Source of the DNA: Candidatus Poribacteria bacterium
Lineage (GTDB): Bacteria; Poribacteria; WGA-4E; WGA-3G
Direction of reading: 5' to 3'
Assembly (NCBI GenBank): GCA_026706025.1
Contig: JAPOZO010000032.1
Span: 1 to 64,000 of the forward strand
Length of the DNA: 64,000 bases
A model generated the notes under the pieces. That model saw only the letters and a program-made list of their open reading frames with translations, was not told the origin of the DNA and made no database searches. The position numbers and the translations under genes were made by a program. Numbering within the stretch: position 1 is the stretch's first letter; every line of letters begins with the position of its first letter. Shown piece after piece: positions 257 to 62,169 of the stretch.

Positions 257-260
257 TTTT

Positions 261-403
261 AGTTGTCAGTTATCAGTACGGATTACTGCGTAATCCTTTC
301 AGTTGTCAGTTACAGGTTTGTGGTATTCAATACACCTATGACTACCACGGGGTTTAACTGAAAACTGGGCTGAAAGCGAACGCAGTAAGCGTACTGACGA
401 CTC
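261..403 (-). repeat. CAGTTATC-type intercistronic repeat element
   Basis: The gap between the stop at 406 and the start at 256 is filled by an element with AGTTGTCAGTTATCAGTACG at one end, a second AGTTGTCAGTTAC copy at 300-312, CTGAAAACTG in the middle and GTACTGACGACT at the other end. A 6-bp stem GGATTA/TAATCC with loop CTGCG lies at 280-296. Related elements lie at 60675-60795 and 62114-62169, in the same orientation relative to the flanking genes. Confidence 0.7.
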
Positions 404-16602: not shown

Positions 16603-16762
16603 GATCGCGAGCGACAAGAAATACGCAGAAATACGCAGAAATACGCAGAAACACCCTATCAAATACCCCTATCAAACATCCCAAGCAAAAACACTCGTTC
16701 CTACAAAGATATATCCCGATTTTTTCAACATCGCGAGCACAGCTCGCTCCTACAAAGATATA
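16603..16762. repeat. Dispersed repeat copy: GCGAGCGACAAGAA ... CACTCGTTCCTACAAAG
   Basis: The fullest copy of a repeat family seen six times in the window. It begins GATCGCGAGCGACAAG, carries three tandem copies of the 10-mer GAAATACGCA, then GAAACACCCTATCAAA and CCCAAGCAAAAACACTCG, and ends with two TCCTACAAAGATAT copies. It lies in a gene-free stretch (16458-16898) and has no open frame of its own. Confidence 0.75.
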
Positions 16763-25346: not shown

Positions 25347-25440
25347 GATCGCGAGCGACAAGAAATCCGCAGAAATCCGCAGAAACACCCTATCAAAGAC
25401 CCCAAGCAAAACCCCCAGCAAAAACACTCGCTCCTACAAC
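25347..25440. repeat. Dispersed repeat copy: GCGAGCGACAAGAA ... CACTCGCTCCTACAA
   Basis: Same family as 16603-16762. It begins GATCGCGAGCGACAAG, has two GAAATCCGCA units, then GAAACACCCTATCAAA, and ends CACTCGCTCCTACAACAAG. It lies in the gene-free stretch 25178-25657, which otherwise holds a terminator and a promoter. Confidence 0.75.
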
Positions 25441-60674: not shown

Positions 60675-60795
60675 AGTTGTCAGTTATCAGTTATCAGTTA
60701 TCAGTTACAAGAGGTTTTGGATAATTTCAAGGTCTCTTTCTGAAAACTGAAAGATTTTTTTCGCAGAAAAAAATCGTACTGATGACTAATAACTA
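60675..60795 (-). repeat. CAGTTATC-type intercistronic repeat element
   Basis: Four TCAGTTA units (AGTTGTCAGTTATCAGTTAT onward, 60675-60708) lie at one end. CTGAAAACTGAAAG, a perfect 9-bp hairpin GATTTTTTT/AAAAAAATC with loop CGCAG (60753-60775) and CGTACTGATGACTAATAACT lie at the other. The element starts at the stop codon of the MBL-fold gene and ends 24 bases before purE. Confidence 0.75.
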
Positions 60796-61584
60796 TTGAT
60801 AAATAATATGAGAATTTCTCTCAATAATCAATGGTTCGGGACCGCCTGACGGAAACTGTGCTGCCCACTCGTTCGGATCATAATCACGGGTAACGAAACA
60901 GGCACGATGCACCGGAACTGCATGCTTCAGTCCGATCCGCGTCGCCATTTTGACGCACCCATCATAGAACGGAAATTCACCCTCAGTTGGGTGGTTCGTC
61001 AGAAAACCGATGTCCGGTTTATGTGCTGCCACTGCTGAAATTAGTGCGTCGTGTTCTGCGAAATTATTGATTGGATCGCCGCTGAAGTAAAGTGTTACGC
61101 CATTACTGACAATCACATATCCCAAATGCGTCACATCAGGTGGTGCTATGTCAGCAGAAGCATCGCCGTCAGGCGGTTTGGCATAGACGGCATGTACGGT
61201 GAGACCGTTGAGTGTCGTAGATTCTCCGGCACAGACCTCCGAGATGTTCGCAGCGGCGACATCTGTTTCAGCGAAAATTTGACGCACACTCTCTTCGGGC
61301 CCCACAAACTGTATCGCATTGGAAGTTTCCCACATCCGACGTATAGATTCTGGGCAGGTGTGATCTCCATGTGCGTGTGTCAAGAGCACAAAATCAGTTG
61401 GAAGTGCCGATTCATCGAGCGGCGGCTCGGTATGAATAAAACGGTCAGCGGGACGTTCCCGCGGAAAATAAGGGTCAATTTGGACAATGGTCCCAGTTGG
61501 ATTCTTTAAGGCAAAACTGCTCTGTTCAAACCAGTGAACAGCAACGGATCCTTCCGGCACCTTCAATTCAACAAGTGGATGCAT
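60793..61584 (-). CDS. MBL-fold metallo-hydrolase (UlaG-like)
   Basis: 263 residues from the ATG at 61584, preceded by AAGGAAAG. A longer in-frame start at 61701 would translate a dispersed repeat and is rejected. The metal site HAHGDH (H70, H72, D74, H75) is intact, followed by LYFSGDP and a late HRACF. It belongs to the UlaG-like lactonase branch rather than beta-lactamases. The stop codon lies inside the edge of the downstream repeat element. Confidence 0.87.
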   Translation of the reverse strand: MHPLVELKVPEGSVAVHWFEQSSFALKNPTGTIVQIDPYFPRERPADRFIHTEPPLDESALPTDFVLLTHAHGDHTCPESIRRMWETSNAIQFVGPEESVRQIFAETDVAAANISEVCAGESTTLNGLTVHAVYAKPPDGDASADIAPPDVTHLGYVIVSNGVTLYFSGDPINNFAEHDALISAVAAHKPDIGFLTNHPTEGEFPFYDGCVKMATRIGLKHAVPVHRACFVTRDYDPNEWAAQFPSGGPEPLIIERNSHIIYQ

Positions 61585-61648
61585 ACTTTTAACTTTCCTT
61601 GCGGTTCGGTCAGGCGAGATTCTTATTTGACGTTCCAAGGCGTAATCT

Positions 61649-61702
61649 GAAGAAATCCGCAGAAACACCCAAGTAAATACCCCAAGCAAAAACCCCTCCA
61701 TT
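61649..61702. repeat. Dispersed repeat copy: GAAATCCGCAGAAACACCC ... AAGCAAAAACCCC
   Basis: A partial copy of the 16603-16762 family: GAAGAAATCCGCAGAAAC, then CCCAAGTAAATACC and CCCAAGCAAAAACCCCTCC. It lies between the VanZ and MBL-fold genes. Confidence 0.65.
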
Positions 61703-62113: not shown

Positions 62114-62169
62114 CAGTTGTTAGTTGTCAGTTTTAACTGAAAACTGATAACCGATAACTGATAACTATT
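62114..62169 (-). repeat. CAGTTATC-type intercistronic repeat element, short form
   Basis: CAGTTGTTAGTTGTCAGTTT, then AACTGAAAACTG and ATAACCGATAACTGATAACT. It spans from the stop codon of the dehydratase gene (62165-62167) to 15 bases before the VanZ start. The hairpin part of the longer copies is absent. Confidence 0.7.

Follow-up and report, generated by a model that had tools for sequence, protein, structure and literature searches.

The STRR sequences of cyanobacteria consist of 7-bp tandem units, and MITEs are short, non-coding sequences with inverted ends and high copy number. Heptamer repeats of the TAACTGA type have been described in Beggiatoaceae, Cyanobacteria and Bacteroidetes (MacGregor 2015, PMC4679880) and noted in Thiomargarita (PMC4853749); in PMC4679880 they are nearly all direct repeats, the exception being a single inverted set of 170, found in BOGUAY. 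REP, BIME and REPIN sequences are high-copy extragenic palindromic mosaics, many of them near stop codons (PMC3733652, PMC12306157, PMC3116915). We found no description of TAACTGA-type repeats in Poribacteria in the open-licence literature, and the word "Poribacteria" does not occur in the text of PMC4679880. Short palindromic intergenic repeats are common, yet their dynamics are hard to observe.

The window analysed here, a stretch of 64,000 nucleotides, is part of contig C32 of a 6.27-Mb genome (G000) of Candidatus Poribacteria, a sponge symbiont. Three sites in it (260-403, 60675-60797 and 62114-62169) carry copies of one high-copy inverted repeat family, with arrays at the positions given in a preliminary description of this DNA. 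The element whose downstream gene is purE (TIGR01162; 60124..60651, minus strand) has a heptamer array (AGTTATC)n at 60675..60709 of the plus strand, adjacent to purE; on the minus strand, which is transcribed, this array forms the 3' TAACTGA arm. The other parts, all assigned to the minus strand, are a central stem-loop AAGAG...CTCTT delimited by sequence and fold (60707..60746), a module B hairpin CAGTACG-stem-CTGCG-stem-CTTTCAG (60747..60781) and the opposite arm with the element end AATAGTTATTAG (60775..60797). The short element comprises one arm at 62114..62132 (plus strand) and a second arm with its end at 62134..62169 (minus strand), both recognised by sequence, and the longer element (260..403, assigned to neither strand; sequence and fold) carries module B hairpins in both arms, at 274-302 and at 370-396. 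The CTGCG hairpin previously reported for the two longer elements is thus present. No part of the window matches Rfam at the gathering threshold. A separate family of short repeats is represented by perfect decamer arrays, AGAAATACGC and AGAAATCCGC, at 16617-16651 and 25361-25385.

The preliminary description placed these elements at or near minus-strand stop codons and 5 to 24 nt before the next start, and the codon positions agree. TAG 60793-60795, the stop of the minus-strand gene at 60793-61701, is part of the element's own end; TAG 62165-62167, the stop of a minus-strand dehydratase gene, is likewise supplied by the end of the short element; and the stop at 406-408 lies three bases past the 260-403 element. 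The next start follows after 24 nt (purE, 60651), 14 nt (62099) and 5 nt (255).

Elements of this family are built of two inverted arms of the heptamer AGTTATC (reverse complement TAACTGA), with ends AATAGTT...AACTATT and inserted sub-modules. Along the transcript, a full element reads AATAGTTATC(AGTTATC)n-AGTTAAAGAGG-centre-CCTCTTTAACT(GATAACT)n-ATT, with a central stem-loop between the opposed arms (one early part of this reading of the layout used a looser heptamer unit than the later counts). Of 77 elements in tandem gaps of G000, 66 open on the 5' side with a sense unit and 73 close on the 3' side with an antisense unit, which makes them inverted repeats. The single orientation claimed earlier had caught one arm only, since units of both orientations are present in every element. 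The ends follow AAT-RGTT at both edges and do so alike in tandem, convergent and divergent gaps; they are therefore a property of the element and not of stop codons.

Two sub-modules, B and C, are located within the arms. Module B has the form CAGTACG-stem-loop-CTTTCAG, of which the CTGCG loop is one version among several. In 1.60 Mb of G000 the pattern has 128 matches, of which 44 have stems of 4 bp or longer; there are 32 stem/loop combinations, a few of them evidently due to chance. The loop is TGC in 9 of the 44 hairpin matches, and TAC, TTCA, TCC and others occur. Module C, TGCCTCGCAGTGAGAG, has 57 matches in the same 1.60 Mb, compared with 2 for a reversed control, and in 5 matches it is nested within a module B loop. 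At one locus (G000:C63:73564-73867), an element and its flanking sequence stand in three tandem copies with a period of about 101 bp.

The family is abundant. The 19-mer CAGTTATCAGTTATCAGTT has 486 matches with up to two mismatches in G000 and none for a reversed-pattern control, and 1.60 Mb (25%) of the genome holds 136 arrays, compared with none in a block-shuffled control. These arrays form 104 clusters, mostly intergenic: 94 lie in gaps (80 tandem, 10 divergent and 4 convergent), 7 inside called genes and 3 at edges. Across 40 genomes (G000 and 39 relatives), all 24 members of the genus that were searched are positive, with 43-486 matches each, and outside the genus 2 of 16 further genomes of the same order or class are positive with 6 matches each. 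Public records contain at least 80 matches to the module B composite, and among the matches listed all 80 are from Poribacteria. The repeat also occurs on an IMG/VR contig (IMGVR_UViG_2740892559_000001), which is 78,675 long, as is the Poribacteria record PYJC01000177; this contig either bears a prophage or is misclassified.

The distribution across gap classes bears on the idea that the elements are transcription terminators or attenuators, for which the stable hairpins at 3' ends speak. Convergent gaps are under-used (4 of 94 gap elements vs 125 of 1120 gaps, p 0.03), no terminator-like site is called inside the 60675-60795 element, and elements occur within runs of co-functional genes such as prcB-prcA and ilvN-ilvC, all of which make this explanation highly improbable. 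Use of tandem and divergent gaps does not differ significantly from expectation by gap count (865 tandem, 130 divergent, 125 convergent); per base pair, divergent gaps are under-used (p 0.0008).

Placement within tandem gaps is close on both sides. In G000, 77 of 949 tandem gaps hold an element, with a median of 6 nt from stop to element and 18 nt from element to start, the start positions being approximate because genes were called with a simple purpose-made, non-standard caller. Defining as flush those elements that lie no more than 15 nt from the stop and no more than 30 nt from the next start, we count 41 of 77, compared with 20.6% (gap-uniform) or 1.8% (length-weighted) expected (binomial p 3e-10 vs 20.6%). 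In the closed genome G005 the medians are 6 nt on the stop side and 21 nt on the start side, and 9 of 25 elements are flush, compared with 21.1% or 1.7% expected; this count alone is not significant against the gap-uniform null (p 0.08). The set used for the arm-pairing tests described below was left out of these placement counts because it included 80 loci picked for holding module B. Flush placement beyond chance is thus confirmed genome-wide in G000. This bears out the distance to stop codons asserted in the preliminary description, whereas the orientation bias asserted with it does not hold. Nor is there a clear sign of the proposed insertion aimed at transcript ends, since the element ends are the same in every gap class and the element's own TAG serves as a flush stop in only 7 of 77 cases. 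Stops supplied by the elements were also considered as a cause of the stop bias and are insufficient (TAG in 31 of 77 vs 238 of 793, p 0.07).

At the other side of the gap, the 3'-most unit presents TAACTGA in sense in 73 of 77 elements and faces the next start at a median of 18 nt. Together with a Bernardetia array that reaches almost to a start codon, this arrangement would suit sites at which a translational regulator binds, the role put forward for the Beggiatoaceae repeats (PMC4679880). We consider such a role improbable: Shine-Dalgarno-like motifs are equally common at genes with elements (38/77) and at others (321/646), and the arm units at the purE gap vary between species, with AGTTATA and AGCCGTC types.

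Another explanation is a selected RNA hairpin, in which a stop-adjacent mRNA stem would cause ribosome stalling or release, shield the upstream transcript or uncouple the two cistrons, as is reported for E. coli REPs near stops. In its favour, 49 of the 77 elements start no more than 15 nt past the stop, and folding of the three window elements is far stronger than that of shuffled sequences (z -5.9, -4.6 and -6.9). Across species, 27 of 30 purE gaps were folded (3 without an anchor were left out), and several are no better than about z -2. Pairing between the arms points away from such selection. The two arms of an element pair less well with each other than do arms exchanged between elements (14.6 vs 17.0), with 5000 of 5000 permutations higher in the combined set; permutations as low numbered 3 of 5000 in G000 alone, 0 of 5000 in the other loci and 44 of 5000 in G005 (n=5). 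With swapped arms as the reference, G-U pairs show no excess over A-C (p 0.55), and these two results together speak against selection on an RNA stem, which bears on the putative role in mRNA processing between cistrons suggested in the preliminary description. The poor pairing is what one would expect if long perfect DNA palindromes are avoided, or if assembly is biased against them, and the avoidance of perfect arms may be partly an assembly effect. A test by best palindromic extension (13.7 vs 11.9 of 21) was discarded, since picking the best own pairing biases it; choice-free repeats gave the opposite result.

A run of genes at G000:C63:386039-393299 matches models for pup_AAA, Dop, UBact, proteasome beta and alpha, and PafA, all but UBact under curated cut-offs. 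Each of its 4 non-overlapping gaps holds an element both in G000 and in its closest relative, G015, with differing interiors, and an element-free gap about 3 kb past the last of these is 92% identical between the two genomes. Full occupancy of this run counts in favour of hairpin selection; overall, we regard a selected RNA hairpin as possible but unlikely.

Comparison of orthologous gaps indicates that positions and contents follow different histories. Between G000 and G005, after dropping gaps longer than 600 bp in either genome, 14 of 111 gaps are occupied in both, 16 in one only and 81 in neither (odds ratio 18, p 2e-7). One gap, C63_71, was a false positive with DnaA-box-like words seen by eye, resembling an origin, and was removed before both this count and the identity comparison. 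Between G000 and G015, 8 of 8 element gaps are occupied in both genomes at a content identity of 0.44-0.73, compared with 0.87-1.00 in 5 element-free gaps; these 13 gaps are a non-random sample, since they come from the loci of one purE search and one 20-kb query, and the G015 assembly is fragmented (880 contigs), with a run of N in one compared gap. In the more distant G005, element gaps of 60-600 bp in both genomes have a median identity to G000 of 0.63 vs 0.74 for element-free gaps, an excess divergence that is not significant (p 0.22). In G005, the gap that corresponds to G000:C63:211165-211319 contains an inverted array built from another unit, of the GGAAGATT type; slots of this kind thus seem to be taken up by other repeat families as well.

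The contents of the G015 gaps resemble other loci. In 8 of 8, the best match in G000 is a locus other than the orthologous slot, by margins of 5 to 142 bits that are small for several (e.g., 82.5 vs 78.3); the gap at 391715-391844, for example, scores 193 bits to C52:141532-141735 and 51 bits to its orthologous slot. An edge segment of 31-59 nt is still 92-100% identical to the orthologous slot in 5 of the 8. The purE gap, readable in 30 of 30 species, has by-eye counts of heptamer-type arms on both sides in 24, on one side in 1 (G017) and on neither in 5 (G002, G008, G013, G023 and G042). Sister species with 97-98% identical purE (G022/G012 and G000/G015) have different elements with conserved edges. 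These comparisons suggest that slots persist while their contents are overwritten by other copies, probably by ectopic recombination via the shared arms. The proteasome/UBact run is the clearest case. The nearest copies at different G000 loci mostly share 77-89% identity along stretches longer than 100 bp, so recent whole-element copying has not been caught in the act.

Persistence of slots despite sequence change could itself reflect hairpin selection. A related reading, in which permanent intercistronic slots are rewritten from other slots and kept because each must hold some hairpin of any sequence, strikes us as rather doubtful.

Searches for a mobilising agent gave no candidate. No clean empty site with a target duplication was seen among the G000-G005 pairs read, and neither an autonomous parent nor a mobilising enzyme was found. 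Among those listed, 13 array pairs (some overlapping) flank 1-2 genes, and none of the encoded proteins looked like a transposase when judged by eye or, in some cases, by family scans. Y1 transposase genes are present also in genera that lack the heptamer element. Of five Y1_Tnp matches in G000, the two inspected are flanked by other palindromes, one with a heptamer element about 0.5 kb downstream. These two, at G000:C10:109380-110240 and G000:C56:16200-17000, are RAYT-like Y1 transposase genes amid GTAG-type palindromes of their own, unrelated in sequence to the heptamer elements. XisH, suggested by the co-occurrence described by MacGregor, is unsupported as a partner: it occurs in 3 of 24 genus members (none of them G000) and 4 of 16 other genomes (7/40 overall).

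The explanation that we favour, and hold to be reasonably probable, is that a non-autonomous modular inverted repeat spread within the genus and is tolerated in intercistronic gaps, with slots inherited and interiors overwritten by other copies. Under this explanation, a non-coding element, REP/BIME- or MITE-like, would have spread through one genus of Candidatus Poribacteria and settled in intercistronic gaps, where it would be tolerated between one gene's stop and the start region of the gene that follows. An occupied slot would then be inherited and its interior repeatedly overwritten, as the orthologous edges and the interiors resembling other loci suggest. The shared heptamer arms could provide the homology for ectopic gene conversion or template switching. 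Hairpins in the polycistronic mRNA would for the most part be a by-product, and those close to stop codons may act as REPs do. Gaps that are orthologous, flanked by genes of 85-99% identity and yet visibly swapped in content make conversion between dispersed copies, slot inheritance, and function versus tolerance directly testable.

The elements are an abundant modular family of inverted repeats, a variant of known heptamer and REP-like repeats. With MITEs they share short length, lack of coding sequence, inverted ends and high copy number (PMC4853749), but no parent insertion sequence or target duplication was found in our searches and the content is rewritten in place. Like REP, BIME and REPIN sequences, they are high-copy extragenic palindromic mosaics, many of them stop-proximal; unlike these, they have heptamer arms and are under-represented in convergent gaps, and no dedicated RAYT was found. 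The GTAG/CGTC foot of REPs was not seen in heptamer elements, where the foot of module B is, by sequence, GTACG...CTTTC. E. coli REPs within 15 nt of a stop stall ribosomes, according to earlier work cited in PMC12306157, and this stalling is the best analogy for a possible effect of the elements.

The likeness to cyanobacterial heptamers drawn in the preliminary description is right, both from PMC4679880 and from plasmid arrays: cyanobacterial plasmids and a Bernardetia plasmid carry TAACTGA-type arrays at gene ends. The cyanobacterial repeats are also 7-bp tandem units, some of exactly the same sequence, and 2 of 6 plasmid examples lie within 3 nt of a stop, whereas only 1 of 6 has both orientations by a strict test. 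Compared with the TAACTGA direct repeats, the heptamer is identical, tandem (at least two adjacent units), intergenic and at gene ends, with units facing the next start. The scarcity of ribosome-binding sites between repeat and start that would be expected of direct repeats of this kind is not seen: 37 of 77 Poribacteria elements have a Shine-Dalgarno-like motif between element and start, and the Poribacteria element adds paired inverted arms and extra modules. With these observations, the range of TAACTGA heptamer repeats comes to include Poribacteria, where they are inverted and modular.
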